Shown here one piece after another: positions 128 to 24,288 of a DNA stretch of 64,000 bases (within the stretch, counting starts at the first letter, position 1; each line of letters starts with the position of its first letter). The notes beneath the pieces were generated by a model. The model made no database searches, was not told the origin of the DNA, and worked only from the letters and a program-made list of their open reading frames with translations. This DNA comes from Demequina pelophila (GTDB taxonomy: Bacteria; Actinomycetota; Actinomycetes; Actinomycetales; Demequinaceae): assembly GCF_000971175.1 (NCBI RefSeq), contig NZ_BBLY01000007.1:1-64000 (forward strand). The letters are read 5' to 3'. The translations under genes were made by a program, and so were the position numbers.

Positions 128-1816
128 CTACAGCAGGTAGCTGTACTTGCGAGCGAAGCCGCCGAGGGTGTCGCCGGCGTCGTGCCCGCTCTCCTTCGCC
201 CGGTCGATGGCGGCACGGACCTCTGCCGCTTCGGCGTCGTCGATGAACGGCATCACCTTCGACTGCAGCTCTGACACGTTCTTCTGCACCGCCGGATCGA
301 GCGAACTGGCCGCGCGCGGCTCCGGCTCGGCGAGCTTCCCGCTATCAAGGGCATCGGCCGATCGCTTCGCGATGGCGGCAAGCTTTCGTCGGTCGACCGA
401 TGCGCCGAAGGACACCACATCGTTGAGCAGCTCGTTGCCCAGGCTGTCCTCGGCGCCCACGTGCAGGATGCCGTCCACGTCGTAGCTGTACGTGAGGTCG
501 AGGGAGATCTCCCCCATGGGCTGCGGTTCGGGCAACGAGATCTCCCACTCCTTGAGCACCACGTTGTCCTGATCGTCGAGCGGCTTTGCCGGGTCGCCTT
601 CCATGACCTTGACCATGACGGCCTCCTGGTGATCGACCACCGGGAAGAACGTCTCCGTCACTCGCGCAGGAAGCTTGTGGTTGCGCGGAATCAGCTGGGA
701 GAACACCAGTCCGGAGCTAGGGTCGAGGCTGACCGTGCCGAGAGCATGCTCGGTCGAGACGAAGAAGTCGCGGTCATCGAGGTCGCCGGAGAGGATGGCC
801 GATGCGACCGCGGCACCCTCCGCCACGGCGGTCATCGGGTCGACGCCGGCGGCGGGGCCGCGGTCGAGCAGTTCCGACACGAAGTTGCGCACTGCCGGAA
901 CCTTGCAGGTGCCGCCCACGAGGACCAGAGCATCGATGTCGGAGTTCTGAAACCCCAGGTCGCTCAGGCACTGCTCGATGGGCTCGCGGACCCGCTCGAT
1001 CTGCTGGCGCACGGCCTTCTCGAACATGACGCGCGTCACCTGGCGGTACTCGCCGCCCGGGATCGGGATGCTCACCTGCTCGACCTGCGAGAGCATGATC
1101 TTCGCGCGCTCGATGTCGAGGCGGAAGCCCGCGCGGTCGCCGGCCGACCAGTGGGACGCATCGGCGACGGTGTCGAGCACCAGTCGCGACAGCGCGGTGT
1201 CGAAGTCGAGCCCGCCCAACTGCTGGATCCCCTTGGACGCCTGCTCCATGAAGACGCCCTCGATGTTGCGCAGCACGGTCACGTCGAGCGTGCCGCCGCC
1301 CCAGTCGACCACCATGAGGGTCTCCTCGGCCGCGGCGTTCATGCTGTACGCCATCGCCGCGGCCGTGGGCTCGTTGATGAGCGCCTTGACCTGGACGCCC
1401 GCCATGCCGGCGGCCAACTTGGTGCGGTGGCGCGCGATGCCGCGGCTGTTGGCGGGGATGGTGACCACGGCCTGATCGAACGCCACGCCCTGACCGGCGC
1501 TCGCGCGCTTCAGGTGGCCGAAGATCATGGTCGCGATCTCCTCGACCACGTATTCGACGCCGTCCACGTCGGCGACCTCCTCGGCACGCAGGAGGCGCTT
1601 GACCGCGGCCAGCGAGCCGGGGCGCTGCTTGGCGGCCCATCCGAAGATCGGCTCGTCGGCGTTGCCACGACCGAACACCGTGGGGAGGACGCGGTCGAAG
1701 CCGAGCGTCGCCCAGGAAGCCGGGGGCTCGTCGATCGCGAGGACGTCGGTGCGGCCGCCCGCAAACTGGGACACCACCGAGTTGGTGGTGCCGAAGTCGA
1801 TGCCGATGCCCGCCAT
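128..1816 (-). CDS. Hsp70 (DnaK) family chaperone ATPase
   Basis: This 562-residue Hsp70-family protein is predicted to be a cytoplasmic ATP-driven chaperone. It has phosphate-1 motif DFGTTNS (residues 7-13), NEPTAAAMAY (148-157), phosphate-2 motif DWGGGTLDVTV (171-181) and adenosine motif LVLVGGTCKVPAVR (297-310). A substrate-binding beta domain follows at about 375-470, with DVDGILHVGAED typical of the family. The C-terminal lid is short (DnaK is about 640 residues). It is the last of four minus-strand genes. I chose the ATG at 1816, which overlaps the previous stop as TGATG; a GTG three bases upstream is an alternative. Its partners suggest a dedicated chaperone module rather than the housekeeping dnaK operon. 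Family identity is certain; a defence role is inferred. Confidence 0.93.
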   Translation of the reverse strand: MAGIGIDFGTTNSVVSQFAGGRTDVLAIDEPPASWATLGFDRVLPTVFGRGNADEPIFGWAAKQRPGSLAAVKRLLRAEEVADVDGVEYVVEEIATMIFGHLKRASAGQGVAFDQAVVTIPANSRGIARHRTKLAAGMAGVQVKALINEPTAAAMAYSMNAAAEETLMVVDWGGGTLDVTVLRNIEGVFMEQASKGIQQLGGLDFDTALSRLVLDTVADASHWSAGDRAGFRLDIERAKIMLSQVEQVSIPIPGGEYRQVTRVMFEKAVRQQIERVREPIEQCLSDLGFQNSDIDALVLVGGTCKVPAVRNFVSELLDRGPAAGVDPMTAVAEGAAVASAILSGDLDDRDFFVSTEHALGTVSLDPSSGLVFSQLIPRNHKLPARVTETFFPVVDHQEAVMVKVMEGDPAKPLDDQDNVVLKEWEISLPEPQPMGEISLDLTYSYDVDGILHVGAEDSLGNELLNDVVSFGASVDRRKLAAIAKRSADALDSGKLAEPEPRAASSLDPAVQKNVSELQSKVMPFIDDAEAAEVRAAIDRAKESGHDAGDTLGGFARKYSYLL

Positions 1817-2391
1817 CACTTGGCCTTCGCCGTGTTCTCGTCGGACGTGATGGTCTCGGCCGCCTCGTCCAAGGCCGCGACGGCCTCCGGAGCTGCGTCC
1901 TCGGCGGGGGCCACGGCGACCTCCGGCTCGACCGTAACAGCGGGCGCAGGCTCAACTACGGGCTCTGGGGCCGACTTCTTCACTGCCCTCAGTCGTCCCT
2001 GGCGCACGAGTTGGCCGGTCGCGGTCACACGATACGCGGGGACCTCGACCTCGGCCTCCTCGCCCGCAGGGATTGTCGACTCGAAGGCGTGCGGGTCCCC
2101 AAAATCCTGGACGCGCTCCACGCCGGCCTGCAGCAGCCACTGGTCCACGAGGTTGCCAAGGTCCTCAAGGCTAGCGCCTCGCTGCAGCGCCGCGTCGATC
2201 TCTGCGATCTGGGCGACGTGCGCCTGACGCGCCGATGCCGAGGCCACAACCTGCTTGCGCAGTCCCTCATACGCCTGCGAGGACATCGATGTTCCTGGAT
2301 CCCGAACCACGAGTGCGGTGTGAATCAATTCCACCTCGCGCTCGAGTTTCTTCACGAGTTCGTGAGTCTCCTTGGCCCTGCGTCCGAACAT
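1816..2391 (-). CDS. GrpE-like nucleotide exchange factor
   Basis: A 191-residue protein with an N-terminal helical, probably coiled-coil half (residues about 5-80) that begins with charged repeats after MFGRRAKE. A compact segment at about 85-135 has the order of a GrpE beta-wing: a GVERVQDFGDP-type stretch, then HAFES, a polar loop, and a final strand reading QGRLRAV. The last 50 residues are a low-complexity Pro/Ala/Glu tail. GrpE proteins exchange ADP for ATP on Hsp70, and the next gene is an Hsp70 overlapping this stop codon, which supports the reading. The match was judged by eye and is remote, so GrpE-like is an inference from fold order plus context. Confidence 0.68.
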   Translation of the reverse strand: MFGRRAKETHELVKKLEREVELIHTALVVRDPGTSMSSQAYEGLRKQVVASASARQAHVAQIAEIDAALQRGASLEDLGNLVDQWLLQAGVERVQDFGDPHAFESTIPAGEEAEVEVPAYRVTATGQLVRQGRLRAVKKSAPEPVVEPAPAVTVEPEVAVAPAEDAAPEAVAALDEAAETITSDENTAKAK

Positions 2392-2393
2392 GG

Positions 2394-2813
2394 TCAGCCT
2401 TTCGTATCGAAACTGTGGAGAGTGGGAAGGGGACTGGTCTCTACGGTGCGGCGAAGCCGCACTGCGGCCTCAACGATCGCGCGCGCCTTGACCGCCTCAA
2501 TCTCGCCCGGGGGGGTCGGAGGGGTCTGGCGTGCCATCGGTTGCGGAGCCGGATTCAGGCGGCCGACCGCAGCGGGGATCTCGTAGACGCTGGGATCAGC
2601 GGGCATTCGGTAGTGGTCGATGGACTCGTGCGGATCTTCGAGGTCATGCTCGATCGCGTGCAAGGCGGCATTCAGGTCCTCGATCTCAAAGGGTGCATCC
2701 GCCATCCGGCGAAGCCGCCGCGAGGCCTTGGCGAAGGCCCGCGAGGCCTCCCGCTTGGTGACGCCAAACGGCACCCCGAGGATCAGGTAGGGGTTGTGCT
2801 TGCGCTCACTCAT
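2394..2813 (-). CDS. J-domain-like protein lacking the HPD motif
   Basis: A 139-residue protein that starts NPYLILGVPFG, the usual opening of a J-domain, followed by a basic helix (residues about 18-36, ending RRLRR). The His-Pro-Asp tripeptide that should follow helix II is absent; the sequence runs directly into an acidic helix at about 40-58. A proline-rich linker (about 80-105) and a final helix complete it. The start overlaps the upstream stop by four bases, and the GrpE-like gene begins two bases after this stop, so the genes are probably translationally coupled. In canonical J-proteins HPD is needed to stimulate Hsp70 ATPase. This one may therefore be an adaptor rather than an activator, or not a true J-protein. 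Confidence 0.62.
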   Translation of the reverse strand: MSERKHNPYLILGVPFGVTKREASRAFAKASRRLRRMADAPFEIEDLNAALHAIEHDLEDPHESIDHYRMPADPSVYEIPAAVGRLNPAPQPMARQTPPTPPGEIEAVKARAIVEAAVRLRRTVETSPLPTLHSFDTKG

Positions 2814-5311
2814 GGCCTCAACCTCTCCAACTCGGTCTTCATCTCCTCGACGCGAGCCAATACGCGTCCGAGGTGGGAGCGAACCATGTAGTCGTCGGCC
2901 AGAGGCATGAGCTTGGTCAGTAGCCTCCTCGTGTCGTTGACGAACTCCAGCAACGGATCGCGCATCTCGGACACCGCCTGCCAGTTCACGTTGTAACGCG
3001 GGATGCTGCGCACCATACTGACGAGCATGGTGTACGGGCGCGAAATCTCGTCGAGCTGCGAAGCGCGGCTCACCACGTAGGCCCGCGCGAGGCAGTCGCC
3101 CGCTCCGTCCACCAGGCCCACAAGCCGGGCTCGTTCGTCCGAACTCACACGATTCAGTTCGCGCTTGGAATCCGACACGAAATCAATGAATCGGAGGTTC
3201 GGCTCGCCCTCGTCCAGGCCCATCGCGATCGAGGCGACGGTGAGGCATTTGAGCGCAATCCGCTGGTGCGGCTCCATCGGCAGGTTCGCGTCGATCACCG
3301 TCAGCCCAAAGGCCGCGGCGCGCAACTCACCTGCGTCCTCGAGGAGCACCTGGATCGCCGCGTCAACCACCTGGTCGCGCTCCCGCGCGATCCATTCTTC
3401 CGGCGCTGGCCCTCGCAACTCCGCGCCGAGCGCCTTGAGGAAGGCTTCGGGCCCCCTCGCCCGAGCCTGGTACACCCGCACGGCAGGTGTATTCGCGTTG
3501 CGCCCGAACGAAGACTCGGGCTGTCGGCAAAGCCATGCATCGTCCTGGTTGGCGAGGACGTTGAGGATGTTCCGGTATCGCTCGGCAGGGAGGTCCTCCT
3601 TGATGAGCGGGCGCAGGGCTCCCGCGATCTCCGCGGGCAGGCTTGCCTGCTCGCTGTCGTCCCAGATCTTGCCGTCGTCGTTGAACCACAGCATGAGTGC
3701 GCGCTCGGCGGCGATCGCCCGCTGGTGCGCGGACGGCGCCTCGGTCGCGAGTTTCACCAGGTGGCGAGCGGCGGATTCGTGCTCGAGCGCGGTGGCCACG
3801 ACGGCGGCGTTCACGACGAGCGCGTCCGTGTACTCGCCTTCGAGCGCCGTGTTGAGCGCGCCGAGCGCGGACTCGGGCTCGCCCTGGAGCCAGAGCGAGC
3901 ACGCGATGATGTTGAGCAGTTCGTCGCGCACGGCCTCGCGCCGCGCGACCCCGAGTCCGGACCGGGCGATGGCGCGAGCGTCATCCCAATGCCAATCGAA
4001 CAGAGCATCCGAGGCTCGACGGAGCGCGGAAAGCTCGGCGTACTCGACCTGGATCGGCTCGGCAGCACGCAGGGTTCCGCCGGCGATCCCGCGCTCGATA
4101 AGCATGGGCCAGAGCGACCTATCGACGAGCACACCCGTGGGCGGATGCGCGTCCGAGGGCCCTCGCGACTCTAGGACCTGCACTGACCGGATCAGGGGGT
4201 CTTCACTGAGGTCGTCGAGCGATCCCCCGGAGGCGAGCGTGCGGAGGTCACGTATCGCGTCGACGGCGTTGGGCGCAAGCGCGGCATCGGCCGAGCTGTC
4301 TCCCGCCAGATGCCGCCTCAGCGCTTCCGCGTGGAACCTCAGTGACACGACCTGGTCGCTGGTGAGTTCCTCGGGCGCCGTCCGCGCCCGCACGTACGTA
4401 GCGAGAGTGGCGGCCGCGCGCCGCTCGGCCGTGCCCGCGTAGTGGACGACCTCGAGCGGAACGCCCCGCTCAATGAGGTCATCGACCATCCCAAGGGGCC
4501 AGTCGTGCTCCACCTGGACCGTCGGGCCGTCCGAAGTCGCGTGCGCATGCGCGGCGAGGAGCCGTCCGGCGGGTCCGACCTCCGCAAGCCAAGGTTTCGT
4601 CGCTACGAGTCGGAACTTGCGCGCGACTTCGCCCGCTACTGGAGCGAAGGTGTCTGCCACCGAGTGCGCCATGTCCTGCAACACGGCAAGCGGATGATCT
4701 CCGGGCTCCCCACAGTCCGCGAGCAGCGCGAGGCTCCTCGCCTCGGCAGCTTCGAGACCGTAGCGCAACGCGATCGTAGCCCGCACTCCAGCCGGGGATT
4801 TCGTGTCCGCGACGATCTGGCGCGCGAGATTGCGGGCACGATGCTCGTCACGCTCGCCCCGCAGGAACTCGTACTTGACGCGCCACGGGTCAATCGGGAC
4901 GCGGGCAAAATCCCCGACGGTCAGATTGAGCGCGCTGGCGTCCAACAGGAGCCCCACGGCCTCCCCCGGCTGCGTGAGGAGCCACGTGACGTACTTGCGC
5001 AACTCGTCGTCAACCGGTGGCGTCAGCCAGCCGCGGTGCTTCAGCTCGCGGTGTGCGACCGTCAGCCGACCGGCTCGCGATCGCACGTCCGGCGACGGGA
5101 CGACGGCGTCGGCCCTCTCCGCCATCTTCCTGAGCGGGATGGACCCGACCTCACCGGATTCCCACAGCACGGTCGCCAACTCGCCCCCGTCGAGCACCAC
5201 CGCGCGCCGTCTCCACAGGCCCTTGCGCGGCCACATGATGCATCCAACGACGGAGGGCGGTGGCTCGACGCAGATCTGCAGCGGCACCGCCTGGCGAACA
5301 TCTGTCGTCAC
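2810..5311 (-). CDS. Large helical-repeat protein of unknown function, first gene of Hsp70 operon
   Basis: An 833-residue protein I do not recognise. Residues about 15-60 look like a small beta-barrel (an SH3/Tudor-like run of short strands around Trp-Glu-Ser-Gly-Glu). The rest is almost entirely alpha-helical with Ala/Leu-rich repeats, reminiscent of TPR or HEAT scaffolds. No signal peptide, membrane segment, Walker motif or nuclease motif is visible. The start is GTG at 5311 with a purine-rich GAGGGGG just upstream. It leads the four-gene operon with J-like, GrpE-like and Hsp70 genes and overlaps the next gene by four bases. It is a plausible recognition scaffold or the client of the chaperone set, which is inferred from context only. 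Confidence 0.85.
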   Translation of the reverse strand: MTTDVRQAVPLQICVEPPPSVVGCIMWPRKGLWRRRAVVLDGGELATVLWESGEVGSIPLRKMAERADAVVPSPDVRSRAGRLTVAHRELKHRGWLTPPVDDELRKYVTWLLTQPGEAVGLLLDASALNLTVGDFARVPIDPWRVKYEFLRGERDEHRARNLARQIVADTKSPAGVRATIALRYGLEAAEARSLALLADCGEPGDHPLAVLQDMAHSVADTFAPVAGEVARKFRLVATKPWLAEVGPAGRLLAAHAHATSDGPTVQVEHDWPLGMVDDLIERGVPLEVVHYAGTAERRAAATLATYVRARTAPEELTSDQVVSLRFHAEALRRHLAGDSSADAALAPNAVDAIRDLRTLASGGSLDDLSEDPLIRSVQVLESRGPSDAHPPTGVLVDRSLWPMLIERGIAGGTLRAAEPIQVEYAELSALRRASDALFDWHWDDARAIARSGLGVARREAVRDELLNIIACSLWLQGEPESALGALNTALEGEYTDALVVNAAVVATALEHESAARHLVKLATEAPSAHQRAIAAERALMLWFNDDGKIWDDSEQASLPAEIAGALRPLIKEDLPAERYRNILNVLANQDDAWLCRQPESSFGRNANTPAVRVYQARARGPEAFLKALGAELRGPAPEEWIARERDQVVDAAIQVLLEDAGELRAAAFGLTVIDANLPMEPHQRIALKCLTVASIAMGLDEGEPNLRFIDFVSDSKRELNRVSSDERARLVGLVDGAGDCLARAYVVSRASQLDEISRPYTMLVSMVRSIPRYNVNWQAVSEMRDPLLEFVNDTRRLLTKLMPLADDYMVRSHLGRVLARVEEMKTELERLRP

Positions 5312-6733: not shown

Positions 6734-7156
6734 TCAGACGTCCCAGACCTTGTCGGGATCGTCGAGCGCGGCGCGTACCTGCACCGGGTCGTGAAGATCC
6801 TTGAACGGGCTGGCTGCCGCAAGGGTGGTGATCGAGCCGAGAATCTCAGCCACGTTGCCGCCACCGTCCGTCATGGCCTTGTCGAGCGCGGCGAACAGGT
6901 TCTCGAAGTTCTTCTCGCGCTCGTCAAAGCTACGGTCAAGGTAGGTGAGGAACAGTTCGCTGCGCGCGTGAATCTCGGCCAGTGCAACCTGCTTCTGAGC
7001 CTCGATCACGTCGCGCTTCGTCTGCTCGGCTTCGCGCACCTGCGCGTACTCCTGCGCGGCGTCGACGATCGTATTGAGAACCGCGAGCGCTTCGAGGGCC
7101 GAGTGCGGTAACGCGCCGCCTGCGCCCTTCTTCGGGATGATCTGACCCTTGCTCAT
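6734..7156 (-). CDS. Small helical protein partnered with the glycine-rich membrane protein
   Basis: A 140-residue protein that I do not recognise. Residues about 18-95 are one long amphipathic, charged helix rich in Glu, Lys, Gln and Ala, probably a coiled coil. A short glycine break (about 98-101) and a second helix follow. There is no signal peptide or membrane segment. The ATG overlaps the stop of the upstream gene by four bases, so the two proteins are almost certainly made together. It could be the cytoplasmic partner, immunity protein or sensor for the membrane protein encoded just upstream. Confidence 0.8.
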   Translation of the reverse strand: MSKGQIIPKKGAGGALPHSALEALAVLNTIVDAAQEYAQVREAEQTKRDVIEAQKQVALAEIHARSELFLTYLDRSFDEREKNFENLFAALDKAMTDGGGNVAEILGSITTLAAASPFKDLHDPVQVRAALDDPDKVWDV

Positions 7157-10397: not shown

Positions 10398-10425
10398 TGT
10401 CACACCCCCCTGACACCATGTGTCA
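10398..10425 (+). promoter_or_regulatory. Operator-like palindrome cluster upstream of DISARM-like operon
   Basis: TGACAC (10411-10416), CAT, GTGTCA (10420-10425) form a perfect 6-bp inverted repeat. A further TGTCA half-site at 10398-10402 is inverted relative to the left arm. The cluster sits 45-70 bases upstream of the probable start of the DrmD-like gene, where a repressor site would be expected. No regulator gene with an obvious match lies in the window. Confidence 0.5.
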
Positions 10426-10470
10426 CGCCAGGCACCAAGCCCGGCATCGCTGAGGGAAGCAGAAAGTACA

Positions 10471-13380
10471 GTGACATCCGTGAGCACCGCCGCGCCCGAC
10501 CAGACTCAGACCAGCACCACAGACCTGAACGTCGCCCCGGGCTCGACAGTCGTGGTCAGAGACGAGGAATGGCTCGTCACCAACGTCACCGAGACCTCCG
10601 ACGGCCCCCTGGTCCACGTCCAGGGCCTCAGCGAACTGGTCCGCGGCACCACCGCGCAGTTCTTCGCCTCCCTGGACCGCATCACGCCGCTCGATCCCCA
10701 CGAGGCCAAGGTCACCGCCGACAACAGCCCCAAGTACCGCGACTCCCGCCTGTGGGTCGAGGCGATGCTCCGCAAGACGCCCGTCCCCATCACCGACACA
10801 TCACTGAGCGTTTCCCCGCACATGCTCGCGGATCAGCTCCCCTACCAGGCCACGGCCATCCGCCAGGCCCTCGACCCCGACAACCTCCGCCCGCGCATCC
10901 TGCTCGCGGACGCGGTCGGACTGGGCAAGACCATCGAGATCGGCATGATCCTGTCCGAGCTCGTCAGGCGCGGCCGCGGCGAGCGCATCCTGATCGTCAC
11001 CCCGCGCCACGTCCTCGAGCAGATGCAGCACGAGATGTGGACCCGGTTCGCCCTCCCCTTCGTCCGCCTCGACAGCGCCGGCATCCAGCGCGTCCGCCAG
11101 AAGCTCCCCGCCACGCGCAACCCCTTCACGTACTACAAGCGCGCCATCATCTCGATCGACACCCTCAAGTCGGACCGCTACCTCGCGCACCTGCGCAACC
11201 AGAAGTGGGACGCGGTGGTCATCGACGAGTCGCACAACCTCACCAACTCCGGCACCCTCAACAACCGCCTCGCGCGCACGCTCGCGCCCACGGCCGATGC
11301 GCTGATCCTCGCCTCCGCGACGCCCCACAACGGCAAGATGGAGTCCTTCGCGAACCTCATTCGCCTGCTCGAGCCCACCGCGGTCCGCCCCGACGGCACC
11401 CCCGACGCCGAGGAGACCACGCGGCTCCTCATCCGCCGCCACCGCAACTCCGACGAGGTCGCCGGCGTGGTCGGCGCCCAGTGGGCGCCGCGCAAGGACC
11501 CCCAGCACCAGCTGATCCCCGCATCGGCCACCGAGAACGCCGTCGCACAGGAGCTCCAGGACACCTGGCTCCACCCGAGCACCGGCCGCAGCCCCTACTC
11601 CGGCCAGACCGACTCCCTCTTCGGCTGGACCCTCGCCAAGGCGTTCCTCTCCAGCCCCGTGGCACTCGATGCATCCATCACTGACAGAATCAAGAAGCTC
11701 CGCGACCAGCCCGGCGACGCCGCCGACCAGGAGCGCGAGGCCCTCGAGCGCCTCCAGGACCTCAACGACCCGAGCACCGCCAAGAGCGCCAAGTACGACG
11801 CCCTGGTGGCCTACCTCATGTCCATCGGCGTCAAGAAGTCGAGCCCGATGCGCGCGGTCGTCTTCGCCGAGCGCGTCGCCACCCTGAACTGGCTCGCCGA
11901 GCACCTCCCCGAGAGCCTGGGCCTCAAGGCCGAGGCGGTCCAGGTCATGCACGGCGGCCTGTCCGACGAGGAGCAGATGCGCCTCATCGAGTCCTTCAAG
12001 CAGGAGTCCTCCCCCATCCGCGTCCTCGTCACCGGCGACGTCGCCTCCGAGGGCGTCAACCTCCACGCCCAGTGCCACGAGCTGGTCCACTACGACGTCC
12101 CGTGGTCGCTCATCCGCATCGAGCAGCGCAACGGCCGCATCGACCGCTACGGCCAGCGCCACTCGCCGCAGATCACCACGCTGATCCTCGACCCCACCTC
12201 CGAGCAGTTCAAGGGCGACCTCCGGGTCCTCCGCCGGCTCCTCGAGCGCGAGCACGCCGCACACCAGGCGCTCGGCGACGTCGCCTCGCTCATGGGCAAG
12301 TTCAACATCGGAGACGAGGAGGAGACGGTCCGCAAGATCCTCGCGGGCAAGGTCGAGGAGGACGATGCGGTGGTCACCCCCGAGGTGGCCGTCGAGGTGG
12401 ATCTGATCAGCCAGATCCTCAACCTCGGCGCCGGCGCCCCCGCGGCACCGACCGCGCCAGCAACGCCCGCGACCGCCACCCCCTCGTACCTCTACTCCTC
12501 CACGCTGGACTACCTCCGCGACGCCCTCGACGCCGCGTTCCCCGACAAGTCCGCCGCCCTCACCGACCGCCCCGGCGAGGGCGGCGTGAAGTGGCGCGAG
12601 TACAAGAACGACGGCATCGTCGAGTTCGCCCCGCCGCGTGATCTGCGCCAGCGCCTCGACGCCCTCCCGCAGACCTACCTGAGCGACCGCGACGTCAAGA
12701 CCACCTTCAAGCTCGCCGTCACCGACGCCAAGGGCAAGAGCGAGCTCGCGGCCGCACTGGCGGATTCCAAGGGCTCCAGCTGGCCCGCCGCGCACTTCCT
12801 GGGCCCCCAGCACCCCGTGGTGGACTGGGCGACCGACCGCGCGCTCGCCAGCCTCGAGCGCAACCACGTCTACGCGATGCGCGGCGACGTCGACTCCCCC
12901 ACCGTGCTGCTCATCGGCACGCTCACCAACAAGCGCGGCCACGTGGTCGCCGCCAGCCACATCGCGGCCTCCCGCCTCACCCCCAGCGCGCCCCAGTGCA
13001 TCGTCACCCCGTACCGCAGCGCCCTGGAGATGCTCGAGGACGCCGGCGTCACCCACGCCCAGTCCAACCCGGGCGCCATCACCGGCGCCGATGCGCTCCA
13101 GCCCCTGGTCCGCATGGCCGTCCGCGACGCCAGCGCCAGCCTGGAGAACCACCTGGACGCCGCCCGCCAGGCCACCACCGAGCGCGTCGAGCGCTGGGCC
13201 GGCCGCGCCACCGCGTGGGAGCGCGAGGCGGACACGCTCGCGCAGCGCACCACCGTCAAGACATCTCGCACCACGGTCCGCGAGGTCGAGCGGATGATCG
13301 AGGAGATGCGGCCCGACCGCTACCTGGTCCGCCCGCTGCTCGTGGTGGTGCCGCAGGACTTCTCCGAGGGGGACATCTGA
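10471..13380 (+). CDS. drmD: DrmD-like SNF2-family helicase (DISARM-like)
   Basis: An SNF2/superfamily-2 ATPase of about 969 residues. An N-terminal beta domain (residues about 20-75) of the PG-x-VVVRDEEWLV type is followed by Walker A ADAVGLGKTIE (about 147-157), DESH (252-255) and SATPHNG. The C-terminal helicase half has SEGVNL and QRNGRIDRYGQ. This layout and length match DISARM DrmD proteins, proposed to remodel or translocate on phage DNA. The start is uncertain: the GTG at 10420 lies inside the operator-like palindrome and has no ribosome-binding site. GTG 10471 follows AGGGAAG by 11 bases and is preferred. One base separates its stop from the methyltransferase ATG, so the two are co-translated. 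Confidence 0.87.
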   Translation: MTSVSTAAPDQTQTSTTDLNVAPGSTVVVRDEEWLVTNVTETSDGPLVHVQGLSELVRGTTAQFFASLDRITPLDPHEAKVTADNSPKYRDSRLWVEAMLRKTPVPITDTSLSVSPHMLADQLPYQATAIRQALDPDNLRPRILLADAVGLGKTIEIGMILSELVRRGRGERILIVTPRHVLEQMQHEMWTRFALPFVRLDSAGIQRVRQKLPATRNPFTYYKRAIISIDTLKSDRYLAHLRNQKWDAVVIDESHNLTNSGTLNNRLARTLAPTADALILASATPHNGKMESFANLIRLLEPTAVRPDGTPDAEETTRLLIRRHRNSDEVAGVVGAQWAPRKDPQHQLIPASATENAVAQELQDTWLHPSTGRSPYSGQTDSLFGWTLAKAFLSSPVALDASITDRIKKLRDQPGDAADQEREALERLQDLNDPSTAKSAKYDALVAYLMSIGVKKSSPMRAVVFAERVATLNWLAEHLPESLGLKAEAVQVMHGGLSDEEQMRLIESFKQESSPIRVLVTGDVASEGVNLHAQCHELVHYDVPWSLIRIEQRNGRIDRYGQRHSPQITTLILDPTSEQFKGDLRVLRRLLEREHAAHQALGDVASLMGKFNIGDEEETVRKILAGKVEEDDAVVTPEVAVEVDLISQILNLGAGAPAAPTAPATPATATPSYLYSSTLDYLRDALDAAFPDKSAALTDRPGEGGVKWREYKNDGIVEFAPPRDLRQRLDALPQTYLSDRDVKTTFKLAVTDAKGKSELAAALADSKGSSWPAAHFLGPQHPVVDWATDRALASLERNHVYAMRGDVDSPTVLLIGTLTNKRGHVVAASHIAASRLTPSAPQCIVTPYRSALEMLEDAGVTHAQSNPGAITGADALQPLVRMAVRDASASLENHLDAARQATTERVERWAGRATAWEREADTLAQRTTVKTSRTTVREVERMIEEMRPDRYLVRPLLVVVPQDFSEGDI

Positions 13381-13381
13381 C

Positions 13382-16300
13382 ATGGCCGTCTTCGACTCGA
13401 TCGTCAACGAGGGCGACTGGATCGGCGAGCACTTCCTCACCTCCGACGGCAAGGCTTCCTTCGCTGCGCAGGTGACCGCCCGCACCAAGGAGTGGAAGGA
13501 CGCCGAGGACTCCCCTCTGTCCCGCTTCACCGCCGCGCGCGGCGCGCTCGAGAAGGCGCTCGTCGGCATCGGCCAGAGCGACCACCCCGCGCAGGACGAG
13601 GTCGACGCCCTCCACGAGGAGTACCTGCGCGTGCTCGGCTTCCGCGGCGCCGGCTACGCGATCGGGGACGATGCGCACGTCACCACCGTGGGTGTGCCAG
13701 GGCTTTCTGGTGCCGCACCGCTGGCGATCGTCTCCGCGCGCCCGGCCGATGCGGTCGAGGACCTCCGCGACAAGGAGCGCGTGGGGCTGTGGGAGCCTTT
13801 CGAGGGAACCGACGGCAAGCCGTCCTGGTCGCTCCCCGGCCGCGTCAGCAGCCGATTTTCTGGCGACGATGCGCCGCGCTTCGTCCTCGTCCTGGCCGGC
13901 AGGTGGGCGCTGGTCGCCGAGGCGGCCCGCTGGGCCGAGGGCCGCTACCTGGCCGTGGATCTGCAACTGGTCGCCGAGCGCAACGACGCCAAGAACGGCG
14001 GCGAGATCCTCACCGCGCTGACCATCCTCTCCGCCGAATCGCTCGCCCCGGACGCCGAGGGGCGCACCTGGTGGGAAACGGTGCTCGAGGAGTCCGTGAA
14101 GCACACCGTGGGCGTGAGCAAGGACCTCCGCGAGGGGGTGCGCCGCTCGATCGAGATCCTCGCGAACGAGGTGGTCGCCCGGCGCGCCGCACAGGGGCTG
14201 GAGCCACTTCCGCAGGCCGAGGCACAAGCGCTTGCCAAGCAGTCGCTGCGCTACATCTACCGAATCCTCTTCCTCCTGTACGCAGAGGCCTCCCCTGAGC
14301 TCGGCGTGCTGCCCGTCGGCGCGCCGGAGTACGACGCGGGCTACAGCCTCGACCGCCTACGCGAACTGGTGCTCCAGGAGATCACCACCGAGCAGGCGCA
14401 GCACGGCACGCACCTGCACGCCTCGCTCGACGTGCTCTTCCGGCTGGTCGACCGGGGCCACTCCCCCGCATCGTCCCGCAGCGAGGACGCCGTGACCGAC
14501 TCGCTCACGTTCCGCAGCCTCCGTGCGGACCTTTTCCTCCCCCGAGCCGTCGCGTACCTCGACGAGGTGAAGCTCGGCAACGGCGCGCTCCAGCAGGTGC
14601 TCGAGCACCTGCTGCTGAGCAAGGAGAAGTCCAAGCGCGACCGCGGCTTCATCTCGTACGCGGAGCTGGGCATCAACCAGCTGGGTGCGGTGTACGAGGG
14701 CCTAATGTCGTACACCGGCTTCTTCGCGGAGGAGGACCTGTTCGAGGTCGCGAAGAACGGCGACTCGTCCAAGGGCTCGTGGGTGGTGCCGACCACCCGT
14801 TCCGAGGGCATCGCCGCGACAGATTTCGTCACCACCGAGGACCCCGAGACCGGCGAGAAGAAGCCCGTGATCCACGAGCGGGGCACGTTCGTGTTCCGCC
14901 TCGCGGGCCGGGAGCGCCAGCAGTCGGCGTCCTTCTACACGCCCGAGGTGCTCACTCGGTTCACCGTCTCGCAGGCACTCGCGGAGCTGCTCGATCAGGA
15001 CGGCAAGACCACCACCGCCGAGGAGATCCTGCAGCTCACGGTGTGCGAGCCGGCGCTCGGCTCGGGCGCGTTCGCCATCGAGGCGACGCGCCAGCTCGCC
15101 GCGGAGTACCTCAAGCGGCGCCAGGCCGAACTCGGCGAGAGGATCGCCCCCGAGGAGTACCAGAGGGAACTCCAGCGGGTGAAGGCGTACATCGCGCTTC
15201 ACAACGTGTACGGCGTGGACCTCAACGCGACGGCCGTCGAACTCGCGGAAATCTCGCTGTGGCTCGACACCATGGTCGAGGGCCTCGAGGCGCCGTGGTT
15301 CGGGCTTCACCTGCGCCGCGGCAACTCGCTCATCGGCGCGCGCAGCGCCGTCTACACGCGCGACACCATCAACGCCAAGGCGTGGCTCACCACGCCGCCC
15401 ATCGACATCACGCTCGGTGAGCGGGAGTCGCATCAGATCTGGCACTTCCTGCTGCCCGCCGAGGGCTGGGGCGCCGTCGCCGATGCCAAGGAGGCGAAGG
15501 ATCTCGCCCCCGACGCGGTCGCATCGCTCAAGGCGTGGCGCAGGTCCATCAAGGCCAAGCCGACCCGCAAGCAGCTGGACGACCTGGTGGAGCTCTCCTA
15601 CCGCGTCGACACGCTGTGGAAGATGGCTGCGCGAAGGCTCGAGATCGCGAACGGGCAGGCACGGCGGCCGATCCCGGTGTGGGGTCGCGAGGACGATGCG
15701 CCGGCTGGGATCGTGTCGCGAGAGCAGATCGAGGAGTCGCTCGCCGACGCGAACAGCGCCTACCGCCGCGTCCGCGCGGTCATGGACGCCTGGTGCGCGC
15801 TATGGTTCTGGCCGCTCACCGCAGACGTGCCACCGCCCACCCTCGACGAGTGGATCGCCACCTGCTTCGCGCTCGTTGGGCGTGCACCCGAGGCCCGGAG
15901 CAGAAGCCGGCTCGGGGCGGACACGCTCGCGAGCGCGGGCTCGTGGGATGAACTCAACGATGCCGAGGCGACGGATCTCGGATTCGCGGGAGTGACCCGA
16001 GCACAGGACCTAACGGTGGCGCACCCCTGGCTCGACGTTGCCGCTGGCACCGCCGCGCGACAGGGTTTCTTCCACTGGCAGTTCGAGTTCAGCCCTGTGT
16101 TCACGGATGGTGGATTCAGCCTTCAGGTCGGTAACCCACCGTGGGTGAGGCCGACGCTCGATACCGACGCCTTGCTCGCTGAGGGCGACCCTTGGTGGCA
16201 ACTCGCCAACAAGCCTGCCGAAGCCGCACGGATCGCAAAGAGAGACGCCACGCTCGCAGTTCCGGGCATGCGGGACCTTGTGCTCGATGCGACGGTTGAA

Positions 16301-17914
16301 GTTCTCAGCACCGCGAATTTCATCGGAAGCAGCGCCAACTACGCCGTTCTCTCCGGCCTGCAGCCGGACCTCTACCGATGCTTCATGGCGCAGACTTGGT
16401 CGCACATTGCAGGCGCTGGCGTAGCGGCGCTCATCCACCTTGAGTCGCATTTCACCGAGGAACGTGCCGGCCACCTTCGTGCTGAGACATACCGGCGCCT
16501 GCGGCGTCATTGGCAGTTCATCAATGAGCTCGAGTTGTTCGAAATCCAGCACCAGAAGATTTACGGCGTCAACGTGTACGGCGCCTCCACTGACACGCCT
16601 TCGTTCATTCAGGCGACGTGGCTCTACCACCCCGATACGGTCGATCGCTCATTCGGCCACGACGGTTCTGGCGCGGAGCCAGGTCTGAAGGACGACGAAG
16701 GCAATTGGGACCTGCGCCCGCATGCCTCTCGACTTGTCGTAGTCGGACCCGACATGCTCGAGACGTGGCACGGCGTGCTCGAGGAAGCCGGTACCCCGGT
16801 GCTCGAGACGCGAATGCTCTATACGGTGAACACGTCGGCGGCGAGGGTGCTCGACAAGCTCGCCGGCGCCCCAAGAATCCGTGGTCTCAAGTTGCGCTTC
16901 TCTCCGGGTTGGCATGAGAAGAACGATCGGGTAAAGGGTCGCTTCGTACAGGAGTGGGGCATGGCACCAACCTGGGATGACGCAATCCTGCAGGGCCCCC
17001 ACATCTACGTCGGCAACCCTATCTACAAGGGGCCCAACGAAACGATGGCGCATCACTTGGACTGGACCTCAACGGACCTCGAGGCCCTGCCCGCCAACGC
17101 GATCCCTGTCACTTCCTACAAACCTGCGGGTGACCGGCGAGCATACGATGCCGAGTACACGCATTGGGACGACGACGGATCGACCAAGAGTGCGCGCGAC
17201 TTCTATCGCATTGCCTGGCGCCGCATGGCAGCGAACACCGGTGAACGCACGCTGTTTCCAGCGCTCGTCCCCCCGGGCCCGGCGCTAATCCAGACAGTGG
17301 GATCAGCGGCCGCGCGCGAGATTCGCGAGACCCTCGTCGCTCTCGGGACCATGCAGAGCCTGATCGCGGACTTCGCTGTTAGAGCAGCGCCGAAGAACGA
17401 CATCCTGTTCTCGACAGTCGAGCGTCTTCCCGTGGTGACCGGAGATCTCCGCTCCGAGATCGTCCGCCGAGTCCTCAAGCTGAATGCGATTACCTCCGCA
17501 TACTCGAAGGCGTGGGAGATCGAAAATGCGATATTGGGCGCGTGGAATCCACAGGCGCCCGCACGGCGAGCCCTCGAACGCCGCCAACTCCAAGTCGAGA
17601 TCGACGCCCTCGTCGCGCTCGGCCTGGGCGTCACCGCCGACGAACTCTGCACCGTCTATCGCACCCAGTTCGCTGTCCTGCGCAAATACGACCAAGAGAA
17701 CCACTACGACTCCAACGGACGCCTCGTGCCCAACGAGGTGCTGAAGCTCTACAAGGCCAAGGGCGAGAACCTGACCGTAGAGGAGCGCACCGCGACCCAC
17801 CCCGGTAGCGGCATCGACTACACCTACGAGTTCCCCTTCGTGGTCCCCGACCGGGAGAAGGATATGCGTGAGGCCTACGCGAAGTTCGAGGCCGAGTTCG
17901 GAGACGATCTGTGA
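13382..17914 (+). CDS. Giant N6-adenine DNA methyltransferase (Eco57I/DrmMI-like)
   Basis: A 1510-residue protein predicted to methylate adenine in DNA. SAM-binding motif I, CEPALGSGAF, lies at about residues 555-564, preceded by SFYTPEVLTRF, the usual Eco57I-type lead-in. Catalytic motif IV, NPPW, lies at about 917-920. Residues 1-520 are helical and contain no recognised nuclease. The size and operon place it with DISARM class-1 methylases or PglX/type IIG enzymes. From about 15,850 to 17,560 (residues about 820-1390, covering motif IV and the likely target-recognition region) codon use is clearly less GC-biased than on both sides, suggesting segmental replacement. The GTG of the next gene overlaps its stop by four bases. 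Methylase identity is firm; exact subtype is inferred. Confidence 0.92.
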   Translation: MAVFDSIVNEGDWIGEHFLTSDGKASFAAQVTARTKEWKDAEDSPLSRFTAARGALEKALVGIGQSDHPAQDEVDALHEEYLRVLGFRGAGYAIGDDAHVTTVGVPGLSGAAPLAIVSARPADAVEDLRDKERVGLWEPFEGTDGKPSWSLPGRVSSRFSGDDAPRFVLVLAGRWALVAEAARWAEGRYLAVDLQLVAERNDAKNGGEILTALTILSAESLAPDAEGRTWWETVLEESVKHTVGVSKDLREGVRRSIEILANEVVARRAAQGLEPLPQAEAQALAKQSLRYIYRILFLLYAEASPELGVLPVGAPEYDAGYSLDRLRELVLQEITTEQAQHGTHLHASLDVLFRLVDRGHSPASSRSEDAVTDSLTFRSLRADLFLPRAVAYLDEVKLGNGALQQVLEHLLLSKEKSKRDRGFISYAELGINQLGAVYEGLMSYTGFFAEEDLFEVAKNGDSSKGSWVVPTTRSEGIAATDFVTTEDPETGEKKPVIHERGTFVFRLAGRERQQSASFYTPEVLTRFTVSQALAELLDQDGKTTTAEEILQLTVCEPALGSGAFAIEATRQLAAEYLKRRQAELGERIAPEEYQRELQRVKAYIALHNVYGVDLNATAVELAEISLWLDTMVEGLEAPWFGLHLRRGNSLIGARSAVYTRDTINAKAWLTTPPIDITLGERESHQIWHFLLPAEGWGAVADAKEAKDLAPDAVASLKAWRRSIKAKPTRKQLDDLVELSYRVDTLWKMAARRLEIANGQARRPIPVWGREDDAPAGIVSREQIEESLADANSAYRRVRAVMDAWCALWFWPLTADVPPPTLDEWIATCFALVGRAPEARSRSRLGADTLASAGSWDELNDAEATDLGFAGVTRAQDLTVAHPWLDVAAGTAARQGFFHWQFEFSPVFTDGGFSLQVGNPPWVRPTLDTDALLAEGDPWWQLANKPAEAARIAKRDATLAVPGMRDLVLDATVEVLSTANFIGSSANYAVLSGLQPDLYRCFMAQTWSHIAGAGVAALIHLESHFTEERAGHLRAETYRRLRRHWQFINELELFEIQHQKIYGVNVYGASTDTPSFIQATWLYHPDTVDRSFGHDGSGAEPGLKDDEGNWDLRPHASRLVVVGPDMLETWHGVLEEAGTPVLETRMLYTVNTSAARVLDKLAGAPRIRGLKLRFSPGWHEKNDRVKGRFVQEWGMAPTWDDAILQGPHIYVGNPIYKGPNETMAHHLDWTSTDLEALPANAIPVTSYKPAGDRRAYDAEYTHWDDDGSTKSARDFYRIAWRRMAANTGERTLFPALVPPGPALIQTVGSAAAREIRETLVALGTMQSLIADFAVRAAPKNDILFSTVERLPVVTGDLRSEIVRRVLKLNAITSAYSKAWEIENAILGAWNPQAPARRALERRQLQVEIDALVALGLGVTADELCTVYRTQFAVLRKYDQENHYDSNGRLVPNEVLKLYKAKGENLTVEERTATHPGSGIDYTYEFPFVVPDREKDMREAYAKFEAEFGDDL

Positions 17915-20900
17915 GCGAGCTTCTCCCGTCCCTGCAGGCAAAGGAGATCCGCTCGGGCCTGCTCGAGTACCTCGCCACCACGTTCGCACTCACCGACGGC
18001 GACGCCCAGGCGGCGCTCAAGGACTTCCTCGAGAACGCATCGTCCGGCATCTTCAAGGGACCTTTCGTGCGCCTGCGCCTGCCGTTCCGCCCGGCCGAGC
18101 CGGGCTGGGAGGACGCGCTCGGCTGGGTACCTGACGGGTTCGTCCCGTACGGCCACCAGGCAGCGGCATTTGGGCGCCTTTCAAGCTCCCTCCACGCGCG
18201 CCCGCTGCCCACGCTCGTCACCACCGGCACCGGCTCCGGCAAGACCGAGGCGTTCCTCTTCCCGCTCCTGGACCACGCCCGCCGCATGCGCGCCGCCGGC
18301 CAGACCGGCATCAAGGCGCTGATCCTCTACCCGATGAACGCGCTCGCCAACGACCAGGCCAAGCGCCTCACCAAGCTCCTCACCAGCGACACCCGGCTCG
18401 CGGGCCTGACCGCCGCGATCTATACCGGCGAGGACTCCGGCCGCCGTACGGTGGTCTCCGAGAAGGGCCTCATCACCGACCGCGACGTGATCCGATCGTC
18501 GCCGCCGGACATCCTCCTCACCAACTACAAGATGCTCGACCAGCTGCTGCTCCGCGCCGCCGACCAGCCCCTCTGGTCCGCGAGCGCCGACAGCCTCCAG
18601 TACCTGGTCCTCGACGAGTTCCACACCTACGACGGCGCCCAGGGCACCGACGTCGCCATGCTCCTGCGCCGCCTCGGCCTCACCCTCCGCAGCCACCAAG
18701 GCGACGGCCTCTCCGAGGAGGACCTCGCGCGCCCGCTCGGTCGCATCACCCCTATCGCCACGTCCGCGACGCTCGGCGACAAGGGCGACCCCGGCGTCAT
18801 GCTCGGCTTCGCGCACACCGTGTTCGGCGAGAAGTTCGGCGACGATGCCGTGGTCACCGAGTCCCGCATGACCTACGACGAGTGGGCCGCACGCCTCGGC
18901 GCCACCTCACCGGGCGTCGGCCTCGAGCCGCTCGCCCTCGACGCCGACGCGGTCGCCGCCGCGGTCCCCCGCTGGCGCGACGCCTCGGCCGCCCAGGACG
19001 CGGAGGGCCTCGCCCGCACCGCGCTGGCCGACCTGTGCCCCGGCGCGGACATCCCCACCGACCCGCGCGGCCTCGCCCGCACCGTCGCGGCGCTGCCGCT
19101 AGTCCGGGCGCTCACCGCCGCATCGGCCGACGCCACGTCCCTGACGGACCTGGCCGCCGCCGTGCTGCCGGAGAAGGACGCGGCCGCCCCGACCGCCGAC
19201 TGGCAGTCCACCCGCGAGGAGTTCCTCCTCTACGTGCTCGCCGCGCTCAGCCACGTCCGCGCCGTCGCCGGCCCCGAGCGCCTCCCCATGCTCAACGTGG
19301 ACCTGCACCTGTGGGTCCGCGAGCTCAGCCGCATCGACCGCCGCGCGGGTGCCACGCCCAGCTACCTGTGGACCGACGACGGCGCCATCGTCCACTCCGA
19401 GGACGCCGCCCTCGACGACACGATCGAGCGCCCCGCCTACCCCGCCGTCTTCTGCCGCCACTGCGGCCGCTCCGGCTGGGGCGTCACACTCGCCCCCACG
19501 GGCGCCGCGATCGACGACGACACCGCCTCGATCCGCCGCAAGCACATGGCCAAGGAGGCCCGCTTCCGCGCGCTGCTCTACGCGCCCTCCGAGGCCGACG
19601 CCTCCGAGCTCGCCGCCGAGCCCATCACCGGCCTCGCCTACTGGCGCATCAACGACCGCGAGCTCGCGTGGGCCGCGCCCGACGAGGACGACGAGGATCT
19701 CCGCGACGGCTGGGTCCTCCCCGTCCTCACCCAGACCGGGGACGATGCGGACGACGCCTCACTCAAGGACACCTGCCCCGCGTGCGGCACCAAGGACGCG
19801 ATCCGCTTCCTCGGCTCTGCGATCGCGACCATGCTGTCCGTGTCCCTGTCCACGCTTTTCGGCAGCGCCGGGCTCGACCAGCACGAGAAGAAGGCCCTGG
19901 TCTTCACCGACTCCGTCCAGGACGCCGCCCACCGCGCCGGCTTCGTCGAGACACGCTCCCACTCCCTCACCGTCCGCTCGCTCCTCATGGACGCGGTGCC
20001 CGCGACGGGCTCGGTCAGCCTCGACGAACTCGCCGAGCGCATCATCCGCGACGCGGGGGACGATGCGGTGGCCAGGTATCGCATCCTCCCGCCCGACCTG
20101 GTGGACCACGAGGGCTTCGCGCCGTTCTGGCAGCAGAAGACCGCGGCCAAGGTCACCAAGCGCGTGCGCGACCGGGTCCAGAACCGGCTGCTGTTCGACG
20201 CGATCCTCGAGTTCGGCCTCCAGTCCCGCGTGGGTCGCACGCTCGAGCTCACCGGCTCGGTCGCGGCGCACGTGGACGCGGGCGGGATCGACAGGCTCGC
20301 GCGCATCGCCCGCAAGGCGATCGAGGGCGCGGACATCCAGGTGCTGGGCGAGGACTCGGACGCCGCGCTGGCCGCCTGGGTGCGCGGCGTGCTGGTGTAC
20401 CTGCGCCAGCAGGGCGGCGTCCACCACCGCTGGCTCGACGGCTACATCGCCGAGGACGGCAACCGCTGGAAGATCTGGGGCGGCCGCCCCAAGAACGTGG
20501 GCATGCCCGCCTTCCCCAAGGGCCGCCCGGCGCCCGAGCTGCCGCGCGTGGGCTCCAGTCGTGCCGCCACCCGCAACTCGGAGTTCGTCAACGTCGCCAA
20601 CGCGCAGTCCTGGTACGCGCGCTGGGCGCAGCGGGTGCTGGGAGTGCCGGGCCAGGCCGCCGCTTCGTTCGCCCGCGCGCTGTTCGTCGAGCTCGCGAAG
20701 GCCGATCTGGTCCTCGAGCACGCCGTCAAGGACTCCGGGGCGACCGTGTACTCGCTGGACCCGGGCATCGTCATGCTGTCGCGCATCGGCGACGACGACC
20801 TCGCCACCGGCGCCACCCTGCTCGCGTGCGACGTGTGCTCCAACGTGGTCCCCGGCGGCCGCGAGGCGGTCGCCCAGCTCGAGGGCGCCCCCTGCGTGGT

Positions 20901-23900
20901 CCTGCGCTGCCCGGGGTTCCTGGCGCGCAAGCCCTCCGAGCCCAACTTCTACCGCCGCTTCTACGGCGACGCGGCGATGCGGCGCATCGTCGCCCGCGAG
21001 CACACGTCGCTGCTCCAGGACAAGGTGCGCCTCGAGTTCGAGACCGGCTTCAAGGAGTCCGGCGAGCGCCCCGAGGCACCCAACGTGCTGGTCGCGACGC
21101 CCACGCTCGAGATGGGCATCGACATCGGCGACCTGTCGACGGTGTTCCTGTCCTCGCTCCCCCGCTCGGTCGCCTCGTACCTCCAGCGCGTGGGCCGCGC
21201 GGGCCGCCTCACCGGCAACGCGCTCAACCTCGCGTTCGTGACGGGCCGCGGCGAGCAGCTCCCGCGCCTGCAGGACCCGCTGTCCGTCATCAACGGCGAG
21301 GTCCGCCCGCCGGCGACCTACCTGGACGCCGAGGAGATCCTCCAGCGCCAGTACATCGCCCACCTGGTGGACACGCTCGCGCGCGACACCTCCCTGGCGC
21401 ACCCGACCGAGGCGTCGAAGGTCATGGCCTCGTCGGAGCCGGGGACGTTCCTGGGCGACCTCATCGCCTTCGCAGAGGACGATGCGCGGGGCCACGTCAC
21501 GCGGTTCCTCGCCAGCTTCGATTCGCTCGCCGAGTCCACGCGCGAGGCGCTGCTCGCCTGGGCCGTGCCCGTGGCGGGCGAGGGCTCGAGCGGCGTCGCG
21601 GAGCTGGTGTTTGGGGCCTCGCGCCGGTGGGCGACGACGCTCGCTGAACTCGAATACCGGCGCAAGGCCATCGAAGACGAGATCCCACGTCTGCGTGACA
21701 AAGCCAAGATGCCCGCCGCGACCGAGGACGAGAAACGCGACGCGCGGAGCGCGGAGGGCTCGCTCAAACTCGTGAAGTCGCAACTCGCGGACATGAAGTC
21801 GAAGTGGTGGGTCGGCGTGCTCGAGGAGTACGGGATCCTGCCCAACTACACGCTGCTGGACGACTCGGTAGAACTTGCGATCGCGCTCAACTGGGTGGAC
21901 GACGAGGGCAACTTCGAGTCCGAGCCCATGTCCTACGCGCGCGGGTCTCGGACGGCGCTGAGCGAGTTCGCGCCGGGCGCGACGTTCTACGCGGGCGGCC
22001 TCGAGATCGTCATCGACGCGGTCGAGCTGGGGACCGAGGGCGACAGCATTCGCGCCCTCGCGCTGTGCGGCGCATGCGGGTACACCAAGGACGTCACCGA
22101 GGGCGGCTCGGTCACGGTGTGCCCGCGCTGCGGCGACAGGCAGATCGCCGACGTCAGTCAGCGACTCGAGGTGCTCGAGTTCACGCGCGCCTCGGCCGAG
22201 GTCAAGCGCGACGAGCAGCGCATCTCCGATCGCCGCGACGACCGCGAGCGCGCCCGATTCCACGTGGTCACCGCGCCTGACATCGACCCCACGTTCGAGC
22301 GGGGCTCCTGGTACGTGCAGAACTACGACTTCGGCGCCCGCTACTTCTCCAAGCTCAGCATCACGTGGCTCAACCTGGGCCGCGCGGACCAGCAGGCCAA
22401 TAGCCTGATGATCGCCGGCGAGGAGCGGCAGGCGCCGCTGTTCCCGCTGTGCGAGGGCTGCGGCAAGAAGGACAACACCGCGGGCACCAACAACCCGTGG
22501 GACCACCGGACGTGGTGCCGCCACCGCAACGCCACGAAGGAGCGCACCCTCAAGGTCGCGCTCACGCGGACGCTCAGCACCCAGGGCGTGCTGCTGCGGC
22601 TGCCACTCGCGGTCACCGTGGGCGACTCGTTCGCCGTGCCGAGCCTGAAGGCCGCGGTGCTGCTGGGCCTGCGCGAGGAGTTCGGCGGCGCGCCCGATCA
22701 CATCGACGTCGTGGTCTCCGTCGACCCGCAGCCCAGCGACGCGGACGGGACTCCCGCCCAGGCGCTGCTGCTCCACGACGTGGTCCCCGGCGGCACCGGG
22801 TACTTGGCCGATCTCACCGACCCCGACAAGGTGTGGAGCCTGCTGCGGCGGGCCTGGGCCGTGCTCGCGAACTGCGAGTGCCGCGAAACCGACAAGCTCG
22901 CGTGCCACCGCTGCCTGCTGCCGTTCGCGCGCTCCGGCGAGGTGACGCACGTGTCGCGGGCGCTCGCCGAGCGCCACCTCGCGGACATCCTGTTCGCCGG
23001 CTCCGCCGAGGGCGCGGAGCCGCCCGCCACCCGACTCTGGAACGTGACCGAGCAGCCGCCGGTGGTTGTCGATATCGAGAGCCACCTGGAGCAGGCGTTC
23101 CGCGCGGTGCTGCAGGAGGCGCTGACCAAGGCGGGAGCCAAGGTCTCGTCGAAGCCTGGCCCGAACGGGACGCGCATCCAGGCGTCCTTCCCGGGCCAGC
23201 CGCTGCGGTGGACCATCGACCCGCAGGAGAAGATGGGCGGGGTCATGCCCGACTTCCTGCTGTGGTCGGACACCGGCGCGGACGAGCACAAGATCGCCAT
23301 CTTCACGGACGGGCACCGGTGGCATGCGACACCGTCGGTGAACCGGATCGCCGATGACGCCCGCAAGCGCGCCATGCTGCGCGACAAGGGCATCCGGGTG
23401 CTGGCCGTGACCGCGGCGGACCTCGAGGAGTGGCGCCGCGGCACCATCGAGCCACCGGCGTGGATGGATCCCGGGATTACCCAGCACCTCATGGCGCAGG
23501 CTCAGGCTCGTTTCGGCCCCTCGGATGTGGCATCGGCGGCAAGCGGGCCGCTGTCATTCCTCGTCGAATGGATGCGATCACCTCGCCCCGACGAACTGCG
23601 ATCGCTGGCGGACCAAGCGGCGTATTACTTCCTCAACCCCGCTCAGGTGCGCTTTGTCCCCGAGCCTGGGTCCTCGCTCGAAACCATCGCTGCGCGGGCT
23701 ATTCGCGACGGGGAGCATCCTGCCTCCGCCGCGCAGCCGCGCGCATGGCTGTGGCGCTCCGGCCCACTGGTGCTCACCGCAGAGGTGCTCTCAAACGGCG
23801 GGTCCAGCGTTGCGCTCGTGCTCGACGACTCGGACGACGCCGTCGCCGATTCCTCCCACAAGGTCGCCTGGCAGGAATGGCTGCGGCTGGCGAACCTGTT

Positions 23901-24276: not shown

Positions 24277-24288
24277 TCAAGGAGAGTC

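Follow-up and report, generated by a model that had tools for sequence, protein, structure and literature searches.

At the left end of a 64,000-nucleotide stretch of Demequina pelophila DNA (the window, which forms the start of contig C5), a chaperone operon lies in a dense defence island, and its J-like, GrpE-like and Hsp70 genes belong to a conserved cassette that recurs across actinobacterial families in direct contact with defence operons of several types. The Hsp70s of this cassette form a clade of their own, most of them are fused to an NYN RNase domain, and the residues of the canonical J-Hsp70 contact are missing from both partners. Its recurrence beside many different antiviral systems, often with the RNase fusion, suggests that chaperones serve as immune switches. 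The window operon may accordingly be read, tentatively and with somewhat less than even confidence, as an actinobacterial defence-linked Hsp70 cassette that acts as a chaperone relay and gates an effector.

A sequence-only reading of the window had proposed four closely packed minus-strand genes followed by a strong terminator, and these features are present (Table 1). A 4-base overlap joins the scaffold and J-like genes, a 2-base gap separates the J-like and GrpE-like genes, and the GrpE-like and Hsp70 genes again overlap by 4 bases; judged from this layout, translational coupling is likely. The terminator-like hairpin is G+C-rich, though just three T follow its stem, and the 127-base stretch downstream of Hsp70 folds with a minimum free energy of -65.6 kcal/mol (z -4.2). 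A consensus terminator scan did not include this hairpin among its listed sites. When the four operon proteins were scanned against Pfam, a family was matched for Hsp70 alone. The DnaK, GrpE and DnaJ genes of the host genome lie together on another contig (C2), and the window operon is therefore a second, private chaperone set, distinct from the housekeeping dnaK operon, as had been claimed.

Table 1. Operon and ARMADA type II features of the window, with two related operons at loci of other genera
Feature	Position	Strand	Basis or remark
Terminator-like hairpin, 19 bp, 3' of Hsp70 stop codon	78..119 (approximate)	-	Folding
Hsp70, separate subfamily, 563 aa	128..1819	-	PF00012, E 6e-76
GrpE-like nucleotide-exchange factor, 191 aa	1816..2391	-	AlphaFold2 model and PDB fold matches
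J-like protein without HPD, 139 aa	2394..2813	-	ORF
Helical scaffold/adaptor, 833 aa	2810..5311	-	ORF; start GTG 5311 (with RBS-like GAGGGGG) or ATG 5236 (giving 808 aa)
ArmA, BrxHII/RapA-like SNF2 helicase	10420..13380	+	PADLOC DrmD/BrxHII matches; PMC12458937; start 10420 or 10480
ArmB, PglX/type IIG-like methyltransferase	13382..17914	+	PADLOC REase_MTase_IIG and DrmMI matches
ArmC, YprA/DruE-like helicase with MZB (DUF1998)	17911..24276	+	PADLOC DruE matches, PF09369
ArmD, GajB-like UvrD helicase	24289..26502	+	Family searches
Scaffold-J-GrpE-Hsp70 operon with TerY-P-like genes (Lentzea, Actinophytocola)	L117:11229-15451, L120:10136-14335		

The window Hsp70 keeps the residues of the ATPase motifs (GIDFGTTNS, DWGGGT, NEPTAAA and the lysine of FGWxAK) and carries the subfamily motifs DWGGGT, FGWxAK and PMTAVA. 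Its lid is short, as had been proposed, with about 90 residues beyond the beta domain and no full-length helical lid. In a phylogenetic tree, the subfamily forms one clade apart from 22 DnaKs (support 100/100), and the scaffold-type Hsp70s, including that of the window, form a subclade within it (94/82). A PADLOC match to PDC-M61B (E 1e-5) was rejected as an identity for the window Hsp70, since it reflects generic Hsp70 similarity over one segment.

In DnaK, Arg167 contacts the aspartate of the HPD motif of J proteins, and this contact is usually regarded as essential. The equivalent residue is Ala in the window Hsp70 and Ala, Thr or Met in all 78 readable members of the subfamily, and it is Arg in 23 of 23 DnaKs. 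On the other side of the contact, HPD is absent from the window J-like protein, as the sequence-only reading had noted, and from nearly all relatives in which the motif region was found, the letters HPD occurring nearby in one of 49 fusion proteins. Both sides of the contact are thus lost, which, at the level of sequence, fits a rewired J-Hsp70 partnership. The description of the operon as a complete chaperone machine was overstated, because the J-like protein lacks HPD and the Hsp70 no longer has the arginine that partners it. A further change affects the C-terminus: in place of the lid, 57 of the 81 Hsp70s carry an NYN RNase domain, identified as RNase_Zc3h12a/NYN (PF11977; E 8e-7 and 1e-8 in two members), in which the motifs DGSN, VDAT, GDAL and NDN are conserved and the acidic residues kept. 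The Druantia-IV-linked and scaffold-type Hsp70s, the window's included, have no NYN domain.

The GrpE-like designation holds by fold and fails by sequence. The AlphaFold2 model of the window protein (pLDDT 82) features a long helix, a helical region and a C-terminal beta domain, and its two best PDB matches in Foldseek are both GrpE (3a6m, E 4.8e-3, probability 1.00; 8gb3_E, E 0.21). The protein has no match to Pfam PF01025, and profile comparison with GrpE (hhalign) gave a non-significant probability of about 1%. The model, built as a monomer, thus supports a predicted GrpE fold that lacks a sequence-level GrpE signature.

The scaffold gene had been presented as an unknown first gene of the operon. 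The protein indeed matches no family in Pfam, PADLOC or NCBIfam, and a profile search returned no known housekeeping family; matches to Coatomer_E and shikimate kinase fell below the cut-off and were rejected. It is not, however, a separate fourth part. In Streptomyces, the J-like domain forms the C-terminus of a fusion protein of ~500-600 aa, and columns 261-510 of the scaffold profile align with the N-terminal region of these fusions (hhalign, 98.4% probability), so that the homologous residues, about 260-510, make up the middle third of the window protein. The window J-like protein aligns with the C-terminus of the same fusions (profile comparison, 97.8%), in the same order as the scaffold part. 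Since both align to one fusion protein in the same order, the window pair is, on profile comparison, a split form of one Streptomyces-type fused adaptor. The model of such a Streptomyces-type fusion, rather than of the window's own scaffold, is all-helical and confident (pLDDT 89). Its PDB matches are weak ones to TPR-like proteins, among them the co-chaperone P58IPK, and a TPR identity was rejected because they were not significant (E 0.07-0.13).

The J-like protein of the window has no Pfam match (PF00226). A pooled J-like profile aligned with canonical J domains at 88.7% over helices I-II, a span of 28 columns only, and scored 33.3, the best of 40 column-shuffled controls reaching 14.3. Searched against 396 genomes of the phylum, the J profile recovered itself alone, the query being too short and divergent.

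The scaffold gene is rare, being found in 2 of 47 Demequinaceae genomes and, at the level of the order, in 2 of 396. The second carrier is Demequina gelatinilytica NBRC 109390 (G006), whose scaffold is 60% identical and in which the same operon is divergent from a complete ARMADA II; the two carriers may share one acquisition. Further scaffold members occur in Lentzea, Actinophytocola and one metagenome-assembled genome. Conservation of the operon in all relatives at a fixed non-defence position, which would have gone against the sequence-only proposal, is not what is seen: it is absent from most of the family and occupies no fixed housekeeping site. When 396 genomes were searched with the Hsp70 profile, the result was swamped by DnaK, yet it yielded a first Streptomyces Hsp70, whose gene follows GrpE-like and J-like coding regions, with Druantia IV genes further upstream. 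A fragment of this Hsp70 subfamily was then used to query one genome from each of about 85,000 species, yielding 482 relatives. The best 80 of these, obtained with a Streptomyces-led query, gave 79 loci, nearly all actinobacterial and mostly from Streptomyces, in which genes were called with a purpose-built caller (codon log-odds) and then clustered. The J-like, GrpE-like and Hsp70 genes occur together and in that order at nearly all 79 loci (J-like, 72 fused and 6 separate; GrpE-like, 74; Hsp70, 81 loci), and the 4-base overlap between the GrpE-like and Hsp70 genes is found at 68 of 73. The cassette is patchy in Streptomyces as well (11/199). Plasmids and phages searched with the scaffold, Hsp70, GrpE-like and fusion proteins gave no cassette member, and Hsp70 matches on viral contigs reached 25-33% only.

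The recurrence of the gene order near defence genes, which the sequence-only reading had put forward as a check, is seen with several kinds of partner. DruF4-DruL4-DruE4 (Druantia IV) lies directly upstream of the cassette at about 15 Streptomyces loci, a UvrD-like helicase is upstream at 11 loci, and some loci have RapA-PglX upstream and LeoBC/LeoA dynamins downstream. Other partners are TmtA (upstream), YprA-RapA (downstream), PglW with a DruE-like protein, and ArmC/ArmD in convergent orientation. These genes are often co-directional with the cassette and overlap or abut it, as where the end of DruE4 is the start of the J gene. In Lentzea and Actinophytocola, the scaffold-type operon runs straight into genes for vWA, kinase, vWA, PP2C and kinase proteins, a TerY-P-like set, and vWA and PP2C genes are also near the metagenomic scaffold-type locus (L124). 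Homologs of the window Arm proteins were found within 10 kb of the cassette at 34 of 78 non-Demequina loci and at 9 of 24 in the non-redundant set, compared with none in a control of 34 random 20-kb windows from the single genus Streptomyces (Fisher p 1e-4 for the non-redundant set). About half of the loci lack an Arm homolog over this distance. A single chromosomal site in Streptomyces, with flanks 64-94% alike, is occupied by four cassette clades whose Hsp70s are 37-57% identical and which are accompanied by different partner genes.

Two side observations concern the surroundings of these loci. The Streptomyces hotspot (L064/L041, L075, L080, L096, L137, L142) holds different chaperone cassettes in different species and is flanked by an HTH-N6-methyltransferase/408-aa pair on one side and a GNAT/solute-binding transporter set on the other. 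Also, 20 of the 79 loci, from several families, encode a protein of 560-750 aa with an N-terminal HTH (VTAAEISRIAGVTRATVSNWRRRH...; e.g. L107:1437-3380) beside the cassette, which is a putative N6-methyltransferase.

In the window itself, defence genes do lie to the right of the operon, but those at 10420-26502, previously called DISARM-like, are ARMADA type II, with BrxHII-like, PglX-like, YprA-like and GajB-like genes arranged in the order that is strictly kept in the published system (Bell et al., 2025; PMC12458937). DISARM is characterized by a drmA/drmB pair with the PLD nuclease drmC; its label was rejected here on the grounds of a single unsplit DruE-like YprA with MZB, and the scanned proteins included none named DrmB or DrmC. 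The N-terminal 250 residues of ArmD, where ARMADA II proteins of the GajB-like kind carry a RelE-like region, have no Pfam match. The island spans about 50 kb, and its further members at 26629-52036, with PADLOC names used as annotations, are the GmrSD-type proteins HEC-05 and HEC-06, a relative of PDC-S26, a pair made up of DrmD-like and UvrD helicases (34254-39547) and, on the minus strand, all of ZacABC (44604-50784). Between the operon and ARMADA II, a DEDDh exonuclease with a BRCT-like C-terminus (5521-6717; strong match to PADLOC candidate PDC-S48, E 4e-131) is divergent from the scaffold gene; it is not beside the operon in D. gelatinilytica. It is followed at 6734-8112 by two overlapping minus-strand genes, encoding a 319-aa relative of PDC-M09A with glycine-rich membrane-like stretches and a 140-aa protein for which no family was found. 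In D. gelatinilytica, ARMADA II is adjoined by a second helicase (L008:12-5087), which belongs to the DruE4/YprA cluster and has about 1,691 aa.

Both Demequina carriers have the operon beside a complete ARMADA II, so that the ARMADA link of the window's own cassette type is drawn from two related genomes. A third Demequina (G021) has ARMADA II and no scaffold gene, and the E. coli ARMADA II tested by Bell et al. (2025; PMC12458937) consists of four genes, none of them for a chaperone. ARMADA as such can therefore do without the cassette.

The independence of ARMADA II, which folds and works in E. coli in the absence of the cassette (PMC12458937), also weighs against an unlikely but serious alternative, namely that the cassette serves solely as a private chaperone in the folding or assembly of very large defence proteins, with no part in sensing. 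The co-transcribed partners are often huge multidomain enzymes (helicases of 1,500-2,100 residues, methyltransferases of about 1,400), for which a dedicated Hsp70/J/GrpE set would be classical help, and the scaffold-J part, being the most divergent, could be client-specific. However, close cassettes swap unrelated partners (RapA-PglX-Leo in place of UvrD-like, with Hsp70 fragments 83% alike), and an RNase fusion in most of the Hsp70s would be unexpected for a pure folding factor. The same fusion would give many members an effector of their own and thus favours a second alternative, judged rather improbable, in which the cassette is an autonomous defence system, carried in islands beside incidental neighbours. 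The interchangeable partners at the shared chromosomal site agree with this, as does the presence of the trio at several loci with no recognized adjoining defence gene (e.g. L089, L094, L100), but co-directional partner genes overlap or abut the cassette at many loci and the window Hsp70 itself has no nuclease domain. That the cassette is a non-immune stress or proteostasis operon landed in islands by chance, proteostasis being the usual role of Hsp70 systems, is very improbable given its patchy spread, its strong enrichment beside defence genes relative to random windows, the RNase fusion and the loss of the canonical J-Hsp70 contact.

Under the preferred reading of a chaperone relay, the helical scaffold and its J-like partner would form an adaptor that recognizes a cue or client, which may be a product of the phage or part of the defence machine encoded nearby, and hands it to the dedicated Hsp70. 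Through ATP hydrolysis and GrpE-like nucleotide exchange, the client would be held or released, and the effector thereby gated. In most relatives, this effector would be the NYN RNase fused to Hsp70; in the Druantia-IV-linked and scaffold-type members, including the window's, it would be a partner in trans, for which the ARMADA II helicase/nuclease set is the most plausible candidate in the window. Client recognition, gating and the role of ARMADA as effector are what we infer from this arrangement. It counts against the relay that the other scaffold-type members (Lentzea, Actinophytocola and the metagenomic locus) adjoin TerY-P or vWA/PP2C genes and not ARMADA. The wider proposal, of an immune module in which a rewired Hsp70 cycle switches the detection of infection into action, through the NYN RNase in most members and partner helicase-nucleases otherwise, is possible but somewhat doubtful.

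Several described systems bear on this proposal. In the available part of their description (Kaur et al., 2020; PMC7159879), GAP1-N2 GTPase conflict systems feature HSP70, GrpE and an FNIII-DnaJ or TPR protein; they are predicted conflict operons, largely actinobacterial, and resemble the cassette in that Hsp70, GrpE and the J/TPR protein form a dedicated set. Unlike in those systems, no GAP1-N2 GTPase operon was recognized among the scanned neighbours of the cassette, in a scan run without a GAP1-N2 profile; the partners are of YprA, RapA, PglX and UvrD type, and the available text of that paper mentions neither NYN fusion nor loss of HPD. A Rhodococcus pseudokoreensis plasmid carries an Hsp70-TPR-GrpE-FtsK operon beside Tn7-like transposition genes (L042:7601-13989); its Hsp70 falls outside the cassette subfamily in the tree and may be of GAP1-N2 type. 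CoCoNuTs (Bell et al., 2024; PMC11090510) include Hsp70-like CnuD domains, sometimes with TerY-P genes, and are thus another case of defence operons with an Hsp70-like component. However, that domain is fused to McrB/McrC homologs and its ATP motifs are degenerate, and DnaJ is absent from the text (PMC11090510), whereas the cassette Hsp70 is a separate protein with intact motif residues and its own GrpE-like and J-like partners.

The partner systems themselves have been defined without chaperones. The published text on ARMADA II does not mention Hsp70, DnaK, GrpE or DnaJ (PMC12458937), and Druantia IV, whose genes stand immediately before the cassette in Streptomyces, is defined by DruE, DruF and DruL, with no chaperone in either the definition or the text (PADLOC; PMC8565338). 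As far as the accessible portion of its report goes, bNACHT25 uses the host housekeeping DnaJ for phage sensing (PMC12169576), which offers, by analogy, a possible precedent for a J protein in the relay; the cassette differs in being a private, HPD-less set rather than housekeeping DnaJ. A full-text literature search, covering few subscription papers and no supplements, returned no description of the cassette, and for that reason its novelty is provisional, with the Hsp70-GrpE-DnaJ sets of GAP1-N2 systems and the Hsp70 domains of CoCoNuTs as precedents.

If the proposal is true, chaperone cycles would be a general regulatory layer of actinobacterial immunity, common to Druantia IV, ARMADA, TmtA, Leo and other systems and omitted from their published definitions. 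Such a layer would explain how large helicase-nuclease systems stay off or are switched on. It would also make the chaperone-RNase fusion an immune effector, and the cassette would offer a natural case of a J protein and an Hsp70 cooperating in the absence of the HPD-Arg167 contact.
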